Origin: Bifiguratus adelaidae
Taxonomy: Eukaryota; Mucoromycota; Endogonomycetes; Endogonales
DNA: 64,000 bases
Reading direction: 5' to 3'
Assembly: GCA_002261195.1 (NCBI GenBank)
Contig: MVBO01000063.1
Location: 1-64,000 of the forward strand
Below, one piece after another: positions 49,988 to 63,842 of the stretch (positions are counted from its first letter, which is position 1; each line of letters starts with the position of its first letter). The notes beneath the pieces were generated by a model, which made no database searches, was not told the DNA's origin, and saw only the letters and a list, made by a program, of their open reading frames with translations. Made by a program: the position numbers and the translations under genes.

Positions 49988-52900
49988 ATGACGGTCGTCG
50001 ATACACTGTTGGTGCCGGGGACAAATCCAAAGGATGGGGGATATACAACGAATGTGTTCAAGGAGAAGCAGCAACAAATGATTCAGGTAGCGCAGAACCT
50101 GGAGAGCAAAGGTTTCATACCCAAAGAACTGATCAAGAATGAAGTTTCGTGGTTCTATGGGCAAGTTCCGTGACCTTTGCTCATGTGCGAGCGCTCTACA
50201 GCTCAGCGTGCTTATGCTGTTTAATCTAGAAACCTTGGTATCGACGATTATTACTTTGCCATGGAGACGGTTGAGACGATATCTTCGCACATCATGGCCT
50301 TGTATGGTGCAAAGATCCTTGCCTTCACGAGGCAGGAAAAATCACTCAGCATCAATCTGGAGCGTGAAACGGACGATATCGGCGTCTATATACATACGTC
50401 CATGCCAGGTGTCAGTCAGGTGGATGGACCTCAGTACGAGCGTCGGTGAGTTTGCCATGTCCATCCAGACTTGATGGGCTTGCATTGACCGTGAGGCAAC
50501 GACTAGTATCGACACCAATTACCTTGATGTGAGCACGCCAAGCCGAGCCTTCCGAATGGAGTCTTATCGCTCCCGCGGAACCGTCTCATCTTCATCAAAC
50601 TCCCAACTTCGTTGCTACTTTGTATCCTTGTGCGATTTCGTCAATCCCACGCCAGCCGAACATCAACTTACCGACATTCATCAGTGCGCCGACAAGAATT
50701 TCTTGGGAAAAGCGACGGCCCATACCATCAGCGCTTATGAAGAGGTGATGAGCCATGTTGTGCGTCGGACCGGATTGGTGATTCGTATTTACGACATTGA
50801 AGGCGGTCGGGAAAAGAAGCTGGTCATTGGATACAAGCAAGGCAGTACCCAAAAGTTTCTAAGTGCGATGAGCGATCTTTATCACTACTATGACTTGTAC
50901 AGTTCTCGCAAATATGTCGGTGGGTACAATAGCACCTGTTGTAGCAGGATCATTCGACTTTCGCTGATTCCACAATAACAGAGCAATTCTCCAATGGCGT
51001 GACCATCATGGCCTTGTATCTCAATACACTTCCGGGCGCAAAGTCGCCTCCTATTGAGCACACGATTCATCAAGTGATGAAGGAGGCTTCTCTCATTCAT
51101 TGTTTGCCAGTGACGCCTTTGCAGTCCTTCTTCCAACGCTCCACCATGTCGGTGCAGGAAGCCATCTATGGCCATGTAGGATGGATCTTTGCGCAGCATT
51201 TTCTGAACCGTTTGGGAAGCGAGTACAAGAGCCTTGATTCCATTCTTGACCGTTCGAACCCAGTCCATGAAGAAGTCCTCAACAAGATGAAGAAGAGATT
51301 GCGAACAGATACATTTACCAGAGAATACATTCTCGACATCATCAAAATGTATCCGGAGCTTCTCAAGTTGCTCTACGCCAATTTCGGCATGGTTCACTAT
51401 GTTAATCAAGCGACTGGATCGCCCAAGTAGGCCCGCCATTAGTTTGTCCCATGAAGCTGGTTATAATATGTCTTCTTTAGGCCTACACTCTCCTATCAGC
51501 GGTTGCAAACACAAACCATCCTAAAAGATGATGAACTTCACGAAATCATTCGCAAGACCACGTCCAATTCTCACGAGCTCATGGTCCTAGAATCCTTTTT
51601 GATCTTCAACAAGCATGTGCTCAAAACCAACTTTTATCAAAACACCAAGGTGGCTTTGGCATTCCGCCTCGATCCTAGCTTCTTGCCGGAGATTGAGTAC
51701 CCTAACAAAGTGTATGGTATGTTCTTTGTGGTCGGCTCTGAATTTCGCGGTTTCCACATTCGCTTCCGAGACGTCGCGAGAGGCGGCATTCGCATTATCC
51801 GGTCCAGAAACAAGGAAGCCTATTCTATCAATCTTCGCTCCCTTTTCGACGAAAACTACGCATTAGCGGCAACACAACAAAGGAAGAATAAGGACATTCC
51901 TGAGGGTGGATCAAAAGGCACCATTCTCCTCGATATCAATCAGCAAGAGAAACCCAAAGTAGCCTTTGAGAAGTACGTGGATTGCATTCTTGATCTCCTC
52001 ATCGACGGCGAAACCCCCGGGATCAAGGACAAACTTGTCGACTTGTACAGAAAACCCGAGATCCTCTTTTTTGGACCGGATGAAGGTACTGCCGATTACA
52101 TGGATTGGGCTTCCAATCATGCACGTGAACGAGGTGCTACCTTTTGGAAGGCTTTTACAACCGGCAAATCGCAATCCATGGGTGGTATCCCTCACGACCT
52201 GTATGGTATGACAACTCGATCCGTCCACCAATACGCTCTGGGCATCTATCGCAAGCTCGGTCTCAAGGAAGATCAGGTCACTAAGTTCCAAACGGGTGGT
52301 CCAGATGGTGATTTGGGGTCGAATGAGATCAAGATTTCCCAAGATAACACCATGGCCATCGTGGATGGTTCCGGTGTCATTTATGACCCTGAAGGACTCG
52401 ACAGAAACGAATTGAACCGATTGGCCACCGGTCGGATGATGATCAATCAATTCGATACGAGCAAATTGGGTAAGAACGGCTTCAGAGTACTCATTGACGA
52501 AATCAATATCACGCTGCCATGTAAGTGGCTCCTAGCGGCAGGCTGAACGCAGAGTTCATTAATGCTTTTCGTTTCAGCTGGAGAAATAATTGACGACGGT
52601 CTGGCATTCCACAACAATTTCCACGTCAACACATTGTCGTCGGCCTTGATCTTCATTCCATGTGGAGGTCGCCCCGAATCCATTGATCTTAGCAACGTCT
52701 CTAAGCTTCTGGACATTGACGGCAATCCGCGATTCAAGTACATTGTTGAAGGTGCCAACTTGTTCTTGACGCAAGAAGCCCGACTTCGTCTGGAGAAGGC
52801 AGGGGTGATCATCTTTAAGGATGCGTCGGCCAACAAGGGCGGTGTGACGTCGTCGTCGTTGGAGGTCTTGGCCGCTCTCGCGTTCAACGATGCCGAATTT

Positions 52901-53394
52901 GCCGAACACATGTGTGTCAAGGATGGCAAGGTTCCTGCCTTTTACGAAGCATATGTCAAGGAGGTGCAACGTATCATTGAGCATAACGCCGAGATGGAAT
53001 TCGAGTGCATCTGGCGTGAACATCGTCGCACCAATTCGCCTCGCTCCTTGATCTCGGACGATTTGTCGGTCGCGATCGTGACGCTCAACGAGCAATTGCA
53101 ACACACCTCCCTGTGGGATAATCTGTCCTTGCGCAAGATGGTGCTCAAGGAAGCATTTCCTAATCTCTTGTTGCAGAAGCTCGGATTGGATGTGCTTTTG
53201 GAACGTGTTCCAGAAAACTATGTACGTGCCATCTTTGGTGCTTACTTGGCCTCTAGGTGAGTAGCCTGTGGGGGGTGGACTGGTCAACTATGGTCTAATG
53301 CCTGCGTAGATTTGTTTACAAGTTTGGTACCAATCCTAGTCAGTTTGCCTTCTTTGAATTTATGAACTCTGCCTACTTTGACAAGATGGTTTAG
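49988..53394 (+). CDS. GDH2: NAD-specific glutamate dehydrogenase (large type)
   Basis: Start ATG 49988 (MTVVDTLLVPGTNPKDGGY). Seven or eight exons give about 1,030 residues. The N-terminal regulatory half has VETISSHIMALYGAKILAF and GLVIRIYDIEGGREKKLVIG. The catalytic half has FRGFHIRFRDVARGGIRII, EGGSKGTILLDI, ILFFGPDEGTADYMDWASNH, KFQTGGPDGDLGSNEIKIS (nucleotide-binding Gly motif) and VEGANLFLTQEARLRLEKAG. The last exon gives YKFGTNPSQFAFFEFMNSAY. This 115-kDa type oxidises glutamate to 2-oxoglutarate and ammonium with NAD. It appears intact and converges on MMSDH. Confidence 0.95.
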
Positions 53395-53492: not shown

Positions 53493-55215
53493 TCAGCGAT
53501 GTGTGGGCATGTTGGTGTGACCTCCCGTACTATCGACGGCATCGGCCTCACGCCATAACGCAGTGACCGTCTTGGCTTTGGAAAAGAAGAGAATACCCTC
53601 TTTCCCATACTGGTGGAGATCACCTAGGAAACTTCCTCGGCTGCCTGTAAAGGAGAACATGGGAAGCGGCACAGGGATAGGCACATTGATGCCAACTTGT
53701 CCAACATCGATCTGCTGTTCAAACTTGCGCGCAATGGCCCCAGATTGGGTGAAGATGGCGGTTCCATTACCGTACGGATTGGCATTCACCAGTTCAATGG
53801 CTTCGTCGAGCGTGTCGACCTCCAAACATACCAGGACAGGCGCGAAAATCTCTTCCTTATAACATTCCATGTACGGTTTGACACCCCGAATGATGGTTGG
53901 TCCCAAAAAGTTGCCCTTTTCGTAATCCTTGACTTGGATGCCGCGACCGTCCAAGACCATGGTAGCACCTTCGTCAAGACCTTTCTGAATCAATCCTTCG
54001 GCTCTCTCTCTGGCCGCTGTGGTGATCAAAGGACCTAGATCAGCCCCTTCGTTCATGCCCATATCGATCTTGAGCTTTTTGGCTTTTGCCGCAAGTTCAT
54101 CCATCCAATATTGTGTATTACCGACAAAGACAGCCGTGGAAAGGGCCATGCATCGTTGACCGGCAGCGCCAAATGCAGCTCCGCAAATGGCATTCAAGGC
54201 TTGTTCCTTGTTCGCATCAGGCATAACGATGCCATGATTCTTGGCCCCCATATTGCACTGAACTCGCTTCCCAGAGGCAGTTCCACGGTTCCAAATGTGC
54301 TTTCCAACGCGGTCACTGCCCACAAAACTGATCGCCTTGATGCGGGGATCGTCACACAGCGTATTAACACAGTCCACGGCACCATGAATCACATTGAGCA
54401 CGCCTGGAGGTACACCAGCCTGTGTTGCAAGCTCGGCTAAAATCATGGCTGCACCAGGATCTTTTTCCGAGGGTTTGATGACCATGCAGTTTCCGCACGC
54501 CAGTGCAACGGGAAACATCCACAAGGGGATCATGGCGGGAAAGTTGAAGGGACAGATACCGGCCACGACGCCCTTTATGCATATTAGCATGCTGTCGAGC
54601 TCTACCTTCCATCGATTACACTCACCAAAGGCTCCTTGATAGTATCTGATGGCCTTGTTAGCAGGCACTTTAAGCAAAGCTCATCGACTTACATGTATCC
54701 ATGTCCCTACTGACTGCCACGCGCTCCCCCATAAGCAAGGTAGGCACGTTGCAAGCAACTTCACAGACCTGAACGCCTCGCTCCACATCCCCACGCGCAT
54801 CAATGTAAGTCTTGCCTTGCTCTTGCACGATAGACGCCGCCAGTCGATCATGGTTCTCTCGGATAAGCGCCGCAAGCTTGGTAAGGATACGTTGACGGTT
54901 CAAGAGCGTGGTACGACGCCAAGGGCCAAAGGCCTCTTGGGCGTTGGCAATAGCGCGTTCGAGTTCACTTGGCGTCGACTCTGGAACCCAAGTGACCACT
55001 GCTTGCGTGGCCTGTCCAGGACGAAACGTTAGTCCCCTCCCACCATCACCGTTTCATCTTACCGGATCGCGCACCGGAATCCACGCGGTCGTCTCACTCT
55101 CCACAAACTCGCCTCCAATGTACATCAACGTGGTCGGGCTACCGTCAGAGCGCTTGCCCTGCGGAGCCAAAGTGCGTCCATGATAGGTAGAAGGCGTGAA
55201 GGTCTGTTTGGTCAT
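53493..55215 (-). CDS. Methylmalonate-semialdehyde dehydrogenase (ALDH6)
   Basis: Start ATG 55215 ([18 protein letters not shown]). Joined exons give [20 protein letters not shown], then [73 protein letters not shown], the catalytic [17 protein letters not shown], and [19 protein letters not shown] near the end. It converts (methyl)malonate semialdehyde to propionyl- or acetyl-CoA with NAD and CoA in valine/pyrimidine catabolism, normally in mitochondria. No strong mitochondrial presequence is visible at the chosen start, so a missed upstream exon or a non-mitochondrial form is possible. Confidence 0.92.
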
Positions 55216-55343: not shown

Positions 55344-56046
55344 TTAACGTGGATCATCTGGCAACAGGTATGGACAATGGGGTTTCATATGGCCGTATTT
55401 GCCGCAGTGCGTGCTAAGAAGCGTGTTGACTAGATGCTCGGGTTGCCTCCGCACTTACCATTGACCGCCAGAGAGATTGAGCGGCTTGACCACTGGAGCA
55501 CCGTTGGCATGACTGTTGGATGTACTACCATTGGATGGATTTGTCCATGAATAAGAAGAAGAGAAAGACGAGGAAGAAAAGGATATGTGAGCATGGGGAT
55601 TGGGTGGATTGGGAGAGGGGCAACGTGAAGGTGAGCGCGATGGTGAGCGTGAATTGGTGGGTGTGATTCGGCGCGAGGATGATAGAGCAGGCGTGGGCGT
55701 TGGACGACGTTCATCCATATTGCCTAATGAACGCTTGTAGAGTGTTTTGGATGCAAACTCTGTGTCAAAAGCAGGACGCGATTTCTGGATGTCCTTTGCA
55801 TCTGCAGTTCAAATGACTTAACGCGGAGAATCACATCGATGCCATGACCCCTGAAGGTGCCAATGATCTACTAGATGCGTGCATACCTGCGTTTGATAAG
55901 TCTGGAAGCCCTCCAACGCCATACTCCTCATGGTCTACCCTCATTTCACCATGACTATAGGGGGTATCTATCTCCGATCGAGTATCTGACGATGGAAATA
56001 GGTCGCGCGAAGACAAATGATCTCGATGATCCTTGGACAACATCAT
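55344..56046 (-). CDS. CCHC zinc-knuckle protein, longer member of a local pair
   Basis: Start ATG 56046 (MMLSKDHRDHLSSRDLFP). Exons join in frame: acidic/polar N-terminus, then AKDIQKSRPAFDTEFASKTL, then a Ser/Pro-rich middle (SRSPSRSPSRCPSPNPPNP), and PVVKPLNLSGGQ. The last intron (55414-55458, 45 nt) splits a TG|C codon, so the apparent Trp becomes Cys and the final exon reads CTHCGKYGHMKPHCPYLLPD. That is a C-x2-C-x4-H-x4-C zinc knuckle. The total is about 185 residues. Such knuckles bind single-stranded nucleic acid or proteins. The paralogue at 57.6 kb shares the KPLNL-GGQC core and the intron position. No known family is recognised. Confidence 0.65.
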
Positions 56047-57563
56047 TCAATTCAGCCGTCAGCTGTGAGTCAAGTGTTCGGACTACAAGAGTTGCAGGGA
56101 AACCGAATTGTTCTTTAAGATGAGGTAACGCAAGGCGACAGCAACCACGACAAGCGAGAAAAAGGCGGAAAATAGGGGCGGTAAATGAAGACAGGAGGCG
56201 AAAGTCTTCTGAGGGGGTTCAAGCCAATCTATTTCATACAAGAAGAAGACACGCGATGGAACAAGTGAAAGAAGGATTTGTCCTTTACGGGAATCGGTTG
56301 GCCTGCATAACGCTCTCGATGATTAAGTGTATTGTTTAATATCACTCGCCCTATAAATCCCAAAAACGCAGATTGTCACTATAAACACGGTGACCTTCAG
56401 AAGCAAATACAGCACAACTGACCACAAGTGGGGCCTTCCACCGCTCAATGGGGACGCTCTGATGTCGCTCCCATTCTGAGAATGTCCACGTCAAAACTCT
56501 GGTGGATGACATCTGGGCGGTCATTGCCCAACTTGGCAACGATTTCTCGAGATCATTTGCCCTTCACCGCGCTATGGCCGTCCTTGGCTGGCATACATCA
56601 TTGGGTTTTCATTCAAACGTCTAGCGACAGGATTAAGTGCTGTCAAAATCCGCTCTGCGCTTGCCTATTCGGGCCAGGAACCTGTTTTTGCAGAAGAGCG
56701 ACCACACAGCAATCGACGTAGAGTTCCATGACGACGATGAGGACGGTACAGCAGCGCCATTCTTTGGTCGTTTGCTGTTAGCGCATATCAAGTCTCGAGG
56801 TCGATGGACTGGTCCATGGGCGCAAACAACTTGCGCGCCTAGCAAAAAACGAATCTAGATGTCACGTTTGAGCGTAACAACCACAGAGATTTGCCCATGA
56901 TTTTGCCCAGCATCTCCTGCATGCAAACCGCACCTCGACAACCGGAGATCCACCACATGCTGGAAACAGACCTTGGGCCAACGCCAATCTCATCGAACCG
57001 GGCCATGTCCGCTTTTAGAAAAGGTCACGCGTGTCGTGCACGCACGTACCCCCTTCCCCAACATTTTTTAGGCGGGAGATTGGGATCATCAGGCGGTCAT
57101 TCCGTGCGGATCTTTGGATGTTGTTGACTCCAATTGTATAAACAACCATGGCTTACGGGTACCGTAAAGCCTGCAATAACGTACAGATGCAGATAATGTT
57201 ACAAAATGTTGCGAATGACAGAGTGCTAGATTTTTGGGGCGACAAAAGCAAGAAAGAAGGAAAACGAGAAAAAGTCTACGGCCGTTTGAGATTGAGCGTT
57301 GATCAAAGTGACCGAGCATGCGCAAGCAATAGACACTGAGACATCCAACACTTTGGCGGGTTGAACCAAAGAATAAGGAATGGATGTGTAGGCCAGCTTT
57401 TGTCCGGCGGGATACTTTTCTGTTGTGATTGCGTGTGAGGATGTGGATGTGAATGGGTATGAAGGATGGATGAGACAAGCGACAAGACCGTCTTAACGAG
57501 ATGGACAGTTTGCCGAGTGTCCGAGTGCCAACAAGCGTTCCTGACGCTTGTTCCGACGGGGTC
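56047..57563. other. Unresolved stretch between the two zinc-knuckle genes
   Basis: About 1.5 kb. Short frames on both strands around 56340-56860 look protein-like (one minus frame ends NLRFWDL, one plus frame contains VKTLVDDIWAVIAQLGNDF), but they overlap each other and no consistent exon model emerged. No repeat or mobile element was recognised. Confidence 0.3.
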
Positions 57564-57763
57564 TCAGGATCGGTTTCGGAGCATCGGGCAAGACGTTCGC
57601 GTGTGTCCGTACTTTCCACACCAAGAACTATTAGGCCAAAGTTGAGTATATCGCGGGGAAAAGGGAGCACGTCCCGGCGAACTCACCATTGACCACCGGT
57701 CAAGTTCAACGGCTTAATGCTGCCCTTGACTTTGAGTGTAGGCGTGCTAACAAATCCTTGCAT
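57564..57763 (-). CDS. CCHC zinc-knuckle protein, short member of a local pair
   Basis: Start ATG 57763 (MQGFVSTPTLKVKGSIKPLN). The exon ends SIKPLNLTGGQ with a split TG|T codon. A 59 nt intron (57628-57686) leads to CSWCGKYGHTRTSCPMLRNR and the TGA at 57564-57566. The product is only about 45 residues: the KPLNLTGGQ core plus one perfect C-x2-C-x4-H-x4-C knuckle. The intron sits in the same codon as in the longer paralogue. An (AT)n run at about 57850-57868 lies about 90 nt upstream and may act as a TATA element. No function can be given beyond likely nucleic-acid or protein binding. Confidence 0.55.
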
Positions 57764-58485
57764 GATATTATTGTGCGCGCAAGAGAGCGTTTGCAAGACT
57801 GAATCAAGTCGTCGACAAGAAGTTGTAAGGACCCGAACGTGCGTGGGGTTATATATATATATATATATCACAAAGAAACCTGCTTGCGAACAAGGGCCAT
57901 TCACGCCCATACCACCCAGACAAAGCGCGCGTTCAACCTTTTGACATTTTTTCTTTCCTTTTCAAACTTACAATAACATGCGTTTCATCAAACCCCACTT
58001 CCTCGGCGCAAGTGTGTCACATCGCGGCGCTCTAAAGATGGGTGGAGCCTATTCGAGACAAAGAAATTGCCAACCGCCGAAGCTTGGTGCGCCATCAGGT
58101 CAAGATTATGTCAAGAGTTGACAAGGATAGAATGAAAAAGGTTCGATGGGGTGACACGACATATATGAACCGCGGCGTTTTACTATCCTGCGCCGCACTG
58201 CTTAAACAGGCTTGGCACTGCACATTTCGTCGTTGTGCAAATAGTTGTGGCAGGTCAATATCGAGCCCAAGGATATGAAAATCCCATGAGTGGTACCGCT
58301 TTCCCATGGGCGGGAACAGAACCAAGACAGAGGTTCAACTTTTTAGTGCCTTTCTCCTTATTTTATTAGGGGGGGTTTCGGGAATGTGCACAGGTATAGA
58401 AATGGACATACCGTACAACGTTAGAACCTTGCCACGGCGTTGACCTATCGACTTGGCGTCAATAGTATACAATAAGTCGCGGAAT
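57764..58485. other. Intergenic with (AT)n run
   Basis: About 720 nt between the short zinc-knuckle gene and the 3' end of squalene synthase. It holds an (AT)n dinucleotide tract at about 57850-57868. No gene is supported on either strand. Confidence 0.4.
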
Positions 58486-59942
58486 TTAGGCGACGTATCG
58501 ATAGACAATCAAACTGAGAACGCCTATCAAAATTGCCGCGATATACAGCGAGGTGTCGTTCTTTGTTCGGGCCTCCAGGGCTTTCACCTCTTTGGGGAAA
58601 TCTTTTTCTATCATAGCTTCAATCTGCAAAAATGATGGTCAGTAACGGAACCACGCGTGGTCGCGAGTGATCGTGTCTTTTTTTCCGCTCTTTGCGCTTT
58701 CCTTACCTTGCCAACTACTATCGATACGTTCATAAAGTTCTTATTGCGGGGATCATTCTTTTGGGAAATCACCCGGACATAATGACGGAATATACCGACA
58801 ACGTCGGTCATTGTTTGGCAACCGAGAATCAATTTGACAGTCTCTCCCTTGCGGATCTTAACCTTCGTCTTGAAGACGTCAATATTTTCAAACACGAGGG
58901 CAAGTGTGGCAATGGCCATGACTTGCGGGATAGCGCAAAAGTTGAAGATGGACTGATTCTTGAGGGCTTGCAAGTAATGCAAAGCGTCAGCCACGTGCTC
59001 CATCGCATTGATCACCATGGCCGCCAAGCAATCCAGAGCTTCCCGTTCATTGGTTGGTTGCTTCGCCAAATCAGCAAACTTGAAGATGTAGTCACCCCAG
59101 ATCTCCTTTGGCCAAAACTGACGACCATCCAACAGATCTTCATGGTAGTCGCGGACGATGTTGGTCTTTTGTAAGAACAAGCCCATAGAATTGGACTTGG
59201 CTCGATCCGCTGCAATTTCAGGCCCTTCAAGCTCAGAAGCCGAGAACAAGTCGCTTAGGCCCCATCCGACCAATCCGGCAACAACGTGACAGTAGAGGTC
59301 ATAATCCTTCTTGGTCTTGATGCTGAGGTTCTCCCGGTATTCGCCATTGGCAAAATCAGCCATGCCTTTTCCCATAGCTTTGGTAATATCGGCAATGACT
59401 TGTTGGTATCTTGGCTTCAACCGCAGGAACTCTCGAATGACGGTATCAAAGGTCACCAACAAATGTCGGTCCTTTTCATTGGGACCATCTAACATAACTA
59501 TGAGAAGGTTGTACATCAGTAGATCGAGCGCAAGCACCTACTCTCGTTAAACGTCCAGCCTTCTTGATAAATAAGCTCATGAAACTTTAGCAATATCTCG
59601 GTCTTTCTCGGAAGGGGCAAAGTCATGTCATCTTCGACCGTATCCAGACCACGAAGCACGAGGTAGAATATACACACCTAAGCCAGATGGTAAGCATGTC
59701 AAAGCTACCGTTACTCGTGTCAGACTTACAGCATCACGTAGCTCAACGTCCAATTCTTGAATCACCATCGCGAAACTCCGAGATGTTGCTTCCAACAACT
59801 CATAACACTTGCGCTTGTCAGGGTCATTAGCAATTATTTGGCGGTTCTGTTTGATGTTGTTGTTGGAAGTGAAAAACTTGTACTTGATGAGCACTTTCAG
59901 CTCGGATGGGTGAGCCAGCGATGCCAGCAGTGTCCCTAACAT
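58486..59942 (-). CDS. ERG9: Squalene synthase
   Basis: Start ATG 59942 (MLGTLLASLAHPSELKVLIK). Joined exons show CYELLEATSRSFAMVIQELD, VCIFYLVLRGLDTVEDDMTL (first Asp-rich motif), CHVVAGLVGWGLSDLF, LFLQKTNIVRDYHEDLLDGR (second Asp-rich motif), FCAIPQVMAIATLALVFEN, and a C-terminal anchor SLYIAAILIGVLSLIVY ending at the TAA at 58486-58488. It condenses two farnesyl-PP molecules to squalene on the ER membrane, the first committed step to ergosterol. It is complete and shows no anomaly. Confidence 0.95.
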
Positions 59943-60020: not shown

Positions 60021-61254
60021 CTAACCGACGATTTCAGAGCCAGGTATGTGTTTGATAAAGGTATTCCAATCCCAGGTTTCTTTGCTCTTATAATGACTGC
60101 ATTGGGTTAGTATGGACGAGAGGGAGGTTGGAATAGTCTCACCTGGTATCATTGGCTGTTTACACAGGGTCAGTATCAAGCATGAAATGTTCAACTGCCT
60201 GCTCTCACCTGCGCATATCACAATGTCTGCATCCGATGCCTCTTGCACCAAGCGTCCTTCCCCAAATGTTTCTATAAGTTGCTTGCAGTTGTCCATACGC
60301 CAGGTCTTCTTGCCCGATTCCTTCTTGAAGGACGGTGCGATGAAAAAGGCATGATCTTTGAATGGCTTCTCGGTATATTTTTGACCATAAGGCTCCTCGG
60401 ACAAGAACTCGTTCACCTTGTGAGATTCTTCTAGCCACTTTGGATCAATGATCCAGCGTGACGTTAGAGCGGCAGCGAAGCATTTCAATGTTCCTGAATG
60501 CAAATATCAACGCCAATCTCGGTCGTCACACAACACTTACTGGACCGTGGTGGACTAATCACATGGGTAATTTGGAGATCGAATTCATCGCTGCCTGCAT
60601 AGATGCTGTTGGACGTTAGACAATGGTAAACAAAGGAGGCCAAGGGGTTCACACTACCTTCCATTCAATTCACGGACTATCCGTTCCAGCTTCTGTATCA
60701 GGCGTAAGAGAATGTATTTGCAGACCTAATGTCAACACTGACCTCTCTGTATTTTGTATTGTAGACCTTCTCCTTGTCGCGAAAGCCAGAGAATGCCACA
60801 ACCACTACACACAGCAAAGGCGGTTAGGAATGAATTCTGTGGTTTGCAGTAGACCTACCTATCTTTGCAGTAGCCTTAACTGTCCGACCGCTACTCGTTG
60901 CTGCTATTCATATTGATGACATTAGCTCACAATCCAACAGCCTCACAAATGCTAACCTTTACTGATTACATTACTAATGTTGCCATTTGCTTCCATTGCA
61001 TCGCTTCGGGTCTTTTTAGGTGATGGCGATGTAATATCCATGTCAAGTCGAGTCAGCGTCCGCTTATTTTTTGTCTTCGAAGGGGAGTCGCTTTGTCTCA
61101 ATCTCTCTTTGAGCGTCGGTGTCTTGCTTGTCGTGGCCGTGGTGTTGATGGAGCTGATGGTAGAAGTGGTATCGGACGTTTTCTCAGTTGTGAAGGACGT
61201 GTTTCGATCTGCTAAACGGAGATTGAGTTTGTTGTTCAGATTGTGCAACCATTC
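60021..61254 (-). CDS. Tandem-BRCT nuclear protein (or C-terminal part of the coiled-coil gene)
   Basis: The coding frame opens after a TAG acceptor at about 61255 (EWLHNLNNKLNLRLADRNTS), continues through a Ser/Thr-rich, Lys-rich region (SPSPKKTRS, likely NLS), then small exons giving VVVAFSGFRDKEKVYNTKY, KLERIVRELNG, and SDEFDLQITHVISPPRSS. A final long exon has TLKCFAAALTSRWIIDPKWL, KPFKDHAFFIAPSFKKESGK and EASDADIVICAG, ending FIKHIPGSEIVG. These are two BRCT repeats of the phospho-binding type seen in DNA-damage mediators. If it is a separate gene, the first in-frame ATG is at 61041. The alternative is a single gene with the upstream coiled-coil ORF through a 32 nt intron (61255-61286). 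Confidence 0.65.
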
Positions 61255-63842
61255 CTACCACTCATCGAAGGGGAAGCATCTTCTACGGTCTTCGTTTTTG
61301 TTGATGCATTGCCTGAAGTACTTGGCTTTCTTGCGCTATCCAGCTCTTCCTTGAGGCTAGTGTTCCATTTCTGCAATTGATCCAGTTTCTCGCTCTTCTC
61401 TTTCGCACTCCTGATTTCTTTGTTCAAGGCTTCCTCTAGGTCCTCGACCTTTTGCCGCATCTTTAAATTGTCTTCATGTAAAGTCTCCTTTTCCGACGTC
61501 AAGTCTGTATACTTGGCCTGTAAAGGTTCCACAATGTCTTCAGTCATCTCCTCTGCGATACTCTGGACTTTATGATTCAGTCGAGCAATCTCGGCTTTCT
61601 GTTCCTCCGTTGTGGTATTGAGGTGATTGATCTTGTCCTGGAGTGATTCCAAATCATTTTTGAGCTGCGTGATTTCAGCTTTCATGTCCTCCGCACGTTG
61701 TTGATGTTCTCGCACGGTTTGTTCTTTCTCATCCAAAGCTTCCTTTGCTTGTCCAAGTGACGTTTCTAAACGCTCGACATTAACTTTCAAATCCTCAACC
61801 ACATCCATCTGCGCCCTCAAGTCTGCAATTTGTTGATTTGATGATTCAAGTTCTTTCAATGCATGCTGGTGATCCTGGGCCAATTGCCCCGCTTGATTAC
61901 GTGCCCCTTCAAGCATTTGATTTGTTTCAGCATTTAGCGCCTTCTGTTCAGCTAGTTGGAGCTGAAGCGTATGGACTGCGTTCTCCTTCGATGTCACTTG
62001 TTGTAATGCATCCCCAAGCTCCGTTCGCCTTTCGGCTTCCCTCGTTTTGCTCGCCGAAAGGTCCTCCTTAATTTGAGCGATGGTTTTCTCGAGCTCTGCG
62101 AGATTAGCATTGCATAAATCCAACTCAGCAGACTTCTCGCTAAGGATGGCGCGGCATTCTTTCGCCTCTTGACCCATTTTTTGACAAGCTCCTTCCAGCT
62201 CTGCTAGCGTCCGACCGACTTCCTCGGTGAAGCTTGCGTCGTTTGTGCTTGAAAGGTGATCAGGAACGGAATCGATTTCTAAATGATGTGCTAGTTGGAG
62301 TAACCTGTTTCCGCAAGCTTCGAATCGTTCGAGTTTTAGACTCGCATCTCGTATAGTTTGCTCTCTATCTTCTGCTTGCTTGTTAAGGATCTCCAGCTTC
62401 TCACTGAGATGTTTGATCTGCTCCGCATCTTGAGCATGCATCGATGTGTCATGCTCAATCTGAGATTGTTTTTGGGCAAGTTCTTCTTGCAATCTCTGCA
62501 CGGTTTCACCTAAGGATGCATTTGATTCCGCAGCCTTTTGCTCTCGCTCTGCCGAGTCCTTTTGAAGCGTTTCATTTTGCTTTTGGGCATCCGCTAACTT
62601 CGCCGATAAATCTGCTGCTTGGGCTTCCGTCAATTTGATCTGATGCTGTAAACCTGCTTTCATCATTGCGTTCTTTTCTTTTTCTTTCGTCAGGGCATGC
62701 TGAAGGTCCTCCCTCACCGTCTTCAAGTCTGCGATGTCCATCTGCAATTGCTTCATCTCCTGTTTCTTCTTGGACAACTCCTCTTCCAAAGTGGACAGTC
62801 TATCTTTCTGGTTCTTGTTCTCTTGCTTGACTGATTTCATTGCCTGTAGGGACTTTGCTTGAGCATCCAAAGTCAGTTGCATCTGCTGCACATTCTGTTG
62901 ACTGGAATTGTAGGCGTGCACTAAAAGCACGAAATCAGCGTGCAAAAGTCGACATCCCTCCTCTTCCGCCTGGAGTTGTGCGCGCAACTGATTCTTATCG
63001 GCCGTCAAGTCATTCATTGCGCGCTGCACTTCTGTATATCTTGTTTCCAGACCCTTGCAGTCGCGTTCAAGTGCCTGATTTACCGTTGAACTTTCGGCGA
63101 CTTCCTCCTGATATGCTTTGTTCTCCTCGAGAACGCGTTGCAACTCGTCGTACACGTTCGCAACTTCGGTCTCTTTTTGCTTGAACTTTGCCTTCAAGGT
63201 CTTTAAACACTTGCAGACAGCCGATTCCTGCGACGACGTTAGCTGGAGTCGGTGTCCCAACGTGTTGACTCGATTAGTCAGCTGATCTATCCGGTGGTAT
63301 GAATCCTCCAACTGCGTTCGCGTCTTGTGCTCATTTCTAAGCGCTTGCGCCAAGCTTTCATGCAATCTTGTTTCCATTTCAGCTTGCTCGAAATCCATTT
63401 GATTGAAAAGCTCATCCATGGTCTCTCGCATCTTGAGGCGGCCATTGACTTTTGCTTGGGTTATGAGAAGCGCTGGAAACATCAATTATGATATCCCATT
63501 AGTCAAAAGCAATGTAAAATGACCATAAAGGTCCAAAGTCAGCGTGGTACCTTGCTCCAAGTTCTTGGCCGCGATTTCTCCTTGACTTTTTACAGTCGCG
63601 AGCAACTGCTGATAGTCTTGCTCCTTCTCCTCAGAGAATTTAAACAGTTTGCCGGAAGCGAGTCCAGATAGCAAGTTGATCTCCTGCTCTGCCTCACCAA
63701 AAGTGAATGCAACATCTGCACAAGAGCATGTCATTAACCTTTGCAAAGTGAAGCAGCCCGCAATACCTTTCTGCAACGCTTGCAACCTTTGCAGACGGTC
63801 CATTAGCGCGTCATTTGACGTCGCAGAGCTGCCGTTTTGCAT
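61236..63842 (-). CDS. Long coiled-coil protein
   Basis: Start ATG 63842 (MQNGSSATSNDALMDRLQRL). Two introns (one near 63.73-63.77 kb, one at about 63470-63550) precede a single exon of about 740 codons. After a short globular-looking head (FTFGEAEQEINLLSGLASGK) the chain is continuous heptad coiled coil, with stretches such as KQENKNQKDRLSTLEEELSK and LEKTIAQIKEDLSASKTREA. The open frame stops at 61236, beside the BRCT-coding frame. I do not recognise the protein. It could be a golgin, spindle or chromosome-structure protein. If joined to the BRCT exons it would be a coiled-coil/BRCT chimaera of about 1,150 residues. Confidence 0.6.

Follow-up and report, generated by a model that had tools for sequence, protein, structure and literature searches.

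Two short minus-strand genes, here called A and B, which lie in a 64,000-nucleotide stretch of contig MVBO01000063.1 of Bifiguratus adelaidae (the window), belong to an intact, multi-copy gene family that is under purifying selection and whose proteins carry one CCHC zinc knuckle directly behind a fixed lead peptide. We give a little better than even odds (probability about 0.55) to the reading that these genes represent an unnamed Mucoromycota family of microproteins, some 31 to 53 residues long with gene B as a long variant, whose members would act as single-knuckle RNA-binding cofactors.

Gene models in the window

A sequence-only reading of the window had described two minus-strand genes, 1.5 kb apart, in which KPLNL(T/S)GGQC is joined to x2-CGKYGH-x4-C, and both were found exactly where it had placed them (Table 1); no complete ATG-started open reading frame of more than 79 codons lies between the two. 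Its proposal that an intron splits the codon of the first knuckle cysteine held for both genes, in phase 2 each time. Gene A extends from an ATG at position 57763 to the end of its stop codon at 57564. Exon 1 encodes MQGFVSTPTLKVKGSIKPLNLTGGQ and supplies the first two bases of the cysteine codon, exon 2 completes this codon and continues with SWCGKYGHTRTSCPMLRNRS, and the spliced product of 46 residues agrees with the length of about 45 that had been suggested. When read unspliced, gene A gives ...GGQW followed immediately by a stop, and the open frame of gene B likewise terminates in ...GGQW, which is the false tryptophan that had been pointed out. The codon use of gene A has a z of 2.68, and a stop-to-stop frame of 197 codons, of no known meaning, overlaps the end of the gene.

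At its C-terminal end, gene B reads KPLNLSGGQC-THCGKYGHMKPHCPYLLPDDPR once joined over the 45-bp intron. Its first exon (56043-55887) is a weak part of the model: codon use has a z of -0.13 over this exon and of 1.80 over the whole gene, and an in-frame ATG at 55718 offers an alternative start that would yield a shorter protein. The long Ser/Pro-rich extension attributed to gene B is present, but its length comes to about 157 residues, not 140, if exon 1 is real. No counterpart of this long N-terminus was seen among the relatives found, the search for longer relatives having used the cores as query. TATA-like sites occur upstream of gene A (-104 to -92) and of a further copy, C (-239), whereas none was found upstream of gene B or of copy D, and we therefore claim no common promoter.

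Table 1. Positions of genes A and B and their parts in the window, and of two further copies (contig coordinates) in the B. adelaidae genome
Feature	Position	Strand	Description
Gene A	57564..57763	minus	46-aa single-knuckle microprotein; exons 57763-57687 and 57627-57564; spliced translation MQGFVSTPTLKVKGSIKPLNLTGGQCSWCGKYGHTRTSCPMLRNRS
Gene A intron	57628..57686	minus	59 bp, GTGAGT...TAATAG, phase 2, cuts first knuckle Cys codon TG|T
Gene A CCHC knuckle	57588..57688	minus	C-SW-C-GKYG-H-TRTS-C, interrupted by the intron
TA repeat	57850..57867	minus	lies about 87-104 bases before the ATG of gene A; TATA element possible from consensus match
Gene B	55344..56043	minus	189-aa form with Ser/Pro-rich N-terminal extension; ATG 56043 (or 56046), stop codon end 55344
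Gene B intron 1	55802..55886	minus	85 bp, GTATGC...CTGCAG; proposed from frame joining
Gene B intron 2	55414..55458	minus	45 bp, GTAAGT...TCTTAG, phase 2, cuts first knuckle Cys codon TG|C
Gene B core	55344..55487	minus	KPLNLSGGQC, knuckle C-TH-C-GKYG-H-MKPH-C, tail and stop codon; split by intron 2
Copy C	C146:35348-35141		lead and splice-donor pattern; MPFNLPKPQQPVKSKPSATPVIKPVNLSGGQC-SWCGRYGHAQAKCPLLKDRRR
Copy D	C2:41266-41043		lead and splice-donor pattern; MPFAKPAPKTQKPVAPVQHIPPLNLQGGQC-TWCGRYGHSRANCTLLKSRMR

Four old paralogues in one genome

The two genes had been presented as a pair, and this description had to be given up, as the genome contains at least four paralogues. A genome-wide search of the 18.6-Mb assembly (286 contigs; the counts are lower bounds) with a pattern combining N-L-x-GGQ and a splice donor returned four exact matches, namely A, B, C and D, and no others. 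The latter two lie on contigs other than that of A and B and agree with these in their core and in the position and phase of the intron. With one mismatch or less allowed, the same pattern had 8 matches in the whole genome versus 1 for the reversed control. The additional loci were not retained: L013 to L015, read by eye over about 900 bases each, show no knuckle downstream, nor does L016 on contig C216, which reads by eye as an ABC-transporter-like ATPase and in this differs from the four family genes. When A, C, D and the Mucor relative P0003 served as protein queries against the own genome, A, C and D were recovered; gene B as query found B alone, and no protein query tied B to the other copies. 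Copy D gave a weak further match in the same genome, at C229:303390 (E = 0.022). Adjoining copy C, a gene on the plus strand (about 300-1333 of locus L003) looks by eye methyltransferase-like.

Across the six paralogue pairs, 16 to 18 of the 26 core residues are identical, the value being 18 of 26 alike for A-B, A-C and C-D. The idea of a common duplication therefore stands only in part: A and B are homologous and have the same intron phase, but A is no closer to B than it is to C, or C to D, so that a recent A-B tandem duplication is not shown. Synonymous differences are near saturation in the six pairs (pS 0.69-0.89), non-synonymous ones are low (pN 0.19-0.34), and non-synonymous changes fall under the neutral expectation in 6/6 pairs (p 0.00037-0.027), these pairs not being independent of each other. 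A to D are old paralogues under purifying selection, rather than a recent tandem pair. As to codon use, neither C (z 0.64) nor D (z 0.75) is distinguishable alone from the null, and the joint value for A, C, D and the final 39 codons of B is a z of 2.85.

Relatives in other fungi and the conserved signature

The sequence-only reading had called for a profile search in other fungi. Searching with a profile built from the four copies yielded 22 candidates, 10 of them proteins with E <= 10, and nine of these 10, with E values from 2.8e-14 to 3.9e-12 and annotated lengths of 32-86 residues, come from named fungi: Radiomyces spectabilis, Umbelopsis vinacea, U. ramanniana, Mucor plumbeus, Rhizopus azygosporus, R. 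delemar, Sporodiniella umbellata, Thamnidium elegans, and Rhizomucor pusillus. The tenth (P0010, E = 3.1e-8) is an environmental open reading frame. These Mucor, Rhizopus, Umbelopsis, Thamnidium, Radiomyces, Sporodiniella and Rhizomucor proteins belong to the family, with the lead and knuckle of our genes and a similar size, and eight of the nine end in CPLLK, the exception being Rhizomucor. In at least two of them (P0001 and P0006) the long annotated N-terminus looks like translated leader, i.e. a mis-annotation, so that the typical family protein would have about 31-53 residues. Gene A used alone as query outside its genome returned no candidate, because too few exact words are held in common; it was the four-copy alignment that found the family. 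The peptide pattern also occurred in 7 stretches of viral contigs, none of which was confirmed.

Longer relatives were sought with five cores strung together, which gave 8 proteins at E <= 1 out of 312 candidates. P0011 from Sporodiniella (E = 2.2e-9) and P0012 from Rhizopus microsporus (E = 3.5e-5) belong to the family, and a third, the environmental P0017 (E = 0.12), is taken up with the introns below. The other five (P0013-P0016 and P0018) were judged unrelated, the letters of four of them having been inspected: P0014 and P0018 are Gag-like by eye and lack the NL-x-GGQ lead, while P0013 and P0015, both environmental, have two knuckles each and are without the lead. The latter, of 180 and 284 residues, begin MSVRCSWCGKYGHNRRGCPDL, and their first knuckle shares CSWCGKYGH with the family, a likeness that is probably convergent.

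Umbelopsis belongs to the Umbelopsidales within the Mucoromycota, and we take the other genera to be Mucorales. The known range of the family lies in the Mucoromycota, with presence beyond it possible. The strong conservation of a core of about 26 residues in several genera of Mucorales and in Umbelopsis points to a function of that fungal branch.

The signature was read from an alignment of 13 rows, chosen by similarity, which comprises the four own copies (B with its last 43 residues) and the nine named relatives; P0010 was left out and three rows were trimmed to their apparent start. Thirteen positions, N, L, G, G, Q, C, C, G, Y, G, H, C and the final L, are invariant in 13/13 rows. Every row has N-L-x-G-G-Q directly before the first knuckle cysteine and C-x2-C-G-x-Y-G-H-x4-C near the C-terminus, in keeping with the CCHC fold pattern C-x2-C-x4-H-x4-C with Gly before His that the family sequences show; outside the alignment, the R. 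microsporus protein departs from the lead (LDLTHGQC). Counting from the first cysteine, Tyr at +6 is present in all rows and Trp at +2 in 11 of 13. The two remaining rows, gene B and R. pusillus P0007, have His at +2 and both read VKPLNLSGGQC, which hints at an old W/H split within the family.

For comparison, 27 distinct other CCHC knuckles were collected from the B. adelaidae genome (from 30 of 32 loci matching zf-CCHC at E <= 0.02). Trp +2 is found in none of them, and hence neither is Trp +2 with Tyr +6; Phe or Tyr occupies +2 in 4, Tyr +6 occurs in one, and an aromatic residue stands at +1 in 17. Outside the family, Trp +2 together with Tyr +6 is present in four proteins that had been found through words in common with the query: P0013 and P0015 have it in their first knuckle, P0014 in its second, and P0018 in its knuckle. 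As unrelated environmental knuckles also have the two aromatics, the mark of the family is the lead plus the knuckle, and not the knuckle alone.

Comparison with known families and structures

The family had been taken for an undescribed one. We found no name for it and, in a Pfam scan of 10 proteins, no model above its cut-off, but the relatives are already in the databases under the labels "hypothetical" or "CCHC-type domain-containing". A literature search of open-licence papers (titles and abstract openings) returned no description of a KPxNLxGGQC family, and the main text of one paper on conserved fungal sORFs (PMC7394265) is without the terms Rhizopus, Mucor, zygomyc-, CCHC and knuckle. 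PF16588 (zf-C2H2_10), the top Pfam match of gene A and of 6/8 other proteins scanned, reached at best 24.5 bits (gene A, E = 2.3e-5; cut-off 26.2) and spans the knuckle part only, without the KPxNLxGGQ lead; gene B had no match to it, and across the own genome it had 2 weak matches, neither above the cut-off. PF00098 (zf-CCHC, the retroviral nucleocapsid type) resembles the family in its C-x2-C-x4-H-x4-C spacing and in the Gly before the zinc His, but its best score, 16.7 bits among the 10 proteins, is under the gathering cut-off of 20.8, and the Trp +2/Tyr +6 combination of the family, absent from all 27 other genomic knuckles yet present in environmental proteins, sets it apart. The best match to PF00130 (C1_1), with 19.7 bits for P0003 (cut-off 26.5), covers half of the profile. 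None of the NCBIfam models exceeded its cut-off for the 4 proteins scanned, a sub-cut-off match of P0002 to the Clo7bot Cys-rich peptide model (16.1 of 31 bits) being judged chance. In neither A nor B does Pfam show an ABC domain that would go with the LSGGQ signature of ABC transporters, and the window has neither a tRNA nor an Rfam match at gathering score.

Within the genome, the best non-family match of C (E = 0.0051) and D (E = 0.0126) is a single C-terminal knuckle in a helicase-like frame (L022, C251:50614-50724), which we take to resemble DDX41. It has the same GG-C-x2-CG-x2-GH-x4-CP-x-L frame, but belongs to a larger protein and has neither the NL-x-GGQ lead nor Trp +2 or Tyr +6. The multi-knuckle proteins of this genome (e.g. 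those on C218 and C224), presumably CNBP/Gis2-like, likewise have CCHC knuckles of a nucleic-acid-binding fold, but carry them in tandem, as against one in the family, and have the aromatic residue at +1 instead of +2.

A PDB sequence search gave 29 matches at E <= 10 and three at E <= 0.01, these three being a Gag protein (8c9m, E = 0.00048), TUT7 (E = 0.0018) and the CCHC protein 7c45 (E = 0.007), which the Foldseek results name as T. brucei RNase D; the weak matches include AIR2 (E = 0.75), LIN-28 (E = 4.4), RBBP6, and DDX41. The 32-residue P0003 was modelled with AlphaFold2 from 10 rows (mean pLDDT 78.8, pTM 0.38), and Foldseek returned 32 matches to this model at E <= 10, the best at 1.4 and none at E <= 0.001. 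T. brucei RNase D and the nucleocapsids of RSV and MLV stood at the top (MLV superposing at 0.4-0.5 A over 16 columns), HIV-1 nucleocapsid and Lin28 lower. Some matches are non-knuckle entries such as CTCF and KDM7A, and the weak nearest solved entries are mostly CCHC knuckles. The model is compatible with the knuckle fold and is no proof of RNA binding.

Proposed function

The proteins consist of a short variable N-terminus, the lead (K)P(L/V)NL-x-GGQ, and C-x-W-C-G-(K/R)-Y-G-H-x4-C-P-x-L, of which the knuckle, judging from its CCHC pattern, is predicted to bind one zinc ion. Aromatic residues in nucleocapsid-type knuckles stack on RNA bases, and by analogy Trp +2 and Tyr +6 may stack on bases of single-stranded RNA. 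The KPxNLxGGQ lead could extend the RNA-binding surface or, as its conservation suggests, dock onto a larger partner, and the whole would work as a small RNA-binding cofactor, not as an enzyme. We infer RNA binding because this is the usual role of the knuckle fold and because the aromatics are conserved; the best likenesses of the P0003 model, albeit with weak scores, are entries whose CCHC knuckles bind RNA (T. brucei RNase D, MLV nucleocapsid, Lin28). The proposed stacking residue is not universal, since His replaces Trp +2 in 2/13 rows, and the two aromatics, occurring as they do in knuckles outside the family, are no proof of a special function. A bolder version, to which we accord a rather small chance, is that of a minimal RNA-protein adaptor, encoded by intron-containing genes throughout the Mucoromycota, its lead of roughly 10 residues docking on a core RNA-processing or RNA-silencing machine and its knuckle selecting the RNA; if so, copies with Trp +2 and those with His +2 (gene B, Rhizomucor) would pick different RNAs.

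CCHC knuckles can also bind protein, as that of CLIP-170, seen bound to a CAP-Gly domain, illustrates among the weak Foldseek matches, which further include chains of spliceosome entries. The knuckle might thus be a protein-docking module whose partner could belong, for example, to nuclear RNA surveillance or to the splicing machinery, any contact with RNA being secondary or absent. NL-x-GGQ is as strongly conserved as the finger, which is expected of a docking peptide, but the lead is also short enough to form part of an RNA-binding surface and the structural matches are all weak; we regard this alternative as unlikely, though a serious one. Descent from the Gag nucleocapsid of a mobile element, kept as host genes, would be compatible with a present RNA-binding role. 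Among PDB sequences a Gag knuckle matches best, and the Gag-like weak matches P0014 and P0018 have a knuckle CNWCGKYGH, also with Trp +2 and Tyr +6, a likeness that raised the odds of this origin slightly in our estimate. However, these two proteins were selected for exact words in common with the knuckle and are without the lead, the four copies have one intron site in common, A and B have no capsid domain by Pfam, and several fungal genera have retained the family, all of which leaves such an origin improbable. That the microprotein mainly buffers or chaperones zinc, as a small Cys/His protein might, is more doubtful still, given a single zinc site per molecule and conserved Asn-Leu, Gly-Gly-Gln, Tyr and Leu residues that are not expected zinc binders. 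The small size of the protein allows direct synthesis and assays for zinc, RNA and partner binding.

The intron in the knuckle codon

Each of the four copies can be joined to the same knuckle by a GT...AG intron of 45-68 bp (46 bp in C and 68 bp in D), in 4/4 cases in phase 2 within the first knuckle Cys codon. The environmental P0017, which looks unspliced, reads ...MFYS-SWCGKYGHKRPTCPLLK, with Ser in place of the first Cys, and its frame continues beyond LLK; a Ser (AGY) at this position fits an intron whose ...AG| end falls at the site used in the four copies. These copies thus share the intron site, probably with one outside sequence. In P0010, close to the Umbelopsis vinacea protein, the read-through ...GGQCSWC-KLL...IIG-GKYGH appears to place a phase 1 intron in the second Cys codon, so that the first-Cys site is not universal.

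Splicing is supported as the best reading of A and B. It could be argued that the intron is only apparent and that the unspliced peptide ending ...GGQW is the functional product: unspliced gene A stops at once, intron retention could be regulated, and branch-site matches are poor, the sole CTNAY-like motif of the gene A intron lying 7 bases from the acceptor, too close to function, and neither intron of gene B having a CTNAY match. This is hardly credible, as annotation of the named homologues gives continuous proteins that include the knuckle, and as the knuckle of P0017 begins ...YS-SWCGKYGH, which is expected if an intron with the end AG| lies in that position. A similar short intron (51 bp, GTAAG...CTAAC...CAG) can be made out in the aldehyde dehydrogenase gene next to them. 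Gene finders easily overlook or wrongly model conserved proteins of 31-53 residues that have an intron in a zinc-binding codon.

Genomic neighbourhood

The neighbours of A and B in the window are ordinary metabolic genes. On the minus strand, an aldehyde dehydrogenase gene at 53496-54680 (Aldedh, E = 1.7e-103), which by eye extends to about 55213, and a squalene/phytoene synthase family gene at 58614-59537 (E = 2.3e-32) were recognised, and on the plus strand an NAD-glutamate dehydrogenase lies in two open frames at 51467-53257. Farther along, at 61239-63485 on the minus strand, a 749-residue open frame with sub-cut-off Pfam matches only has a coiled-coil-like appearance.
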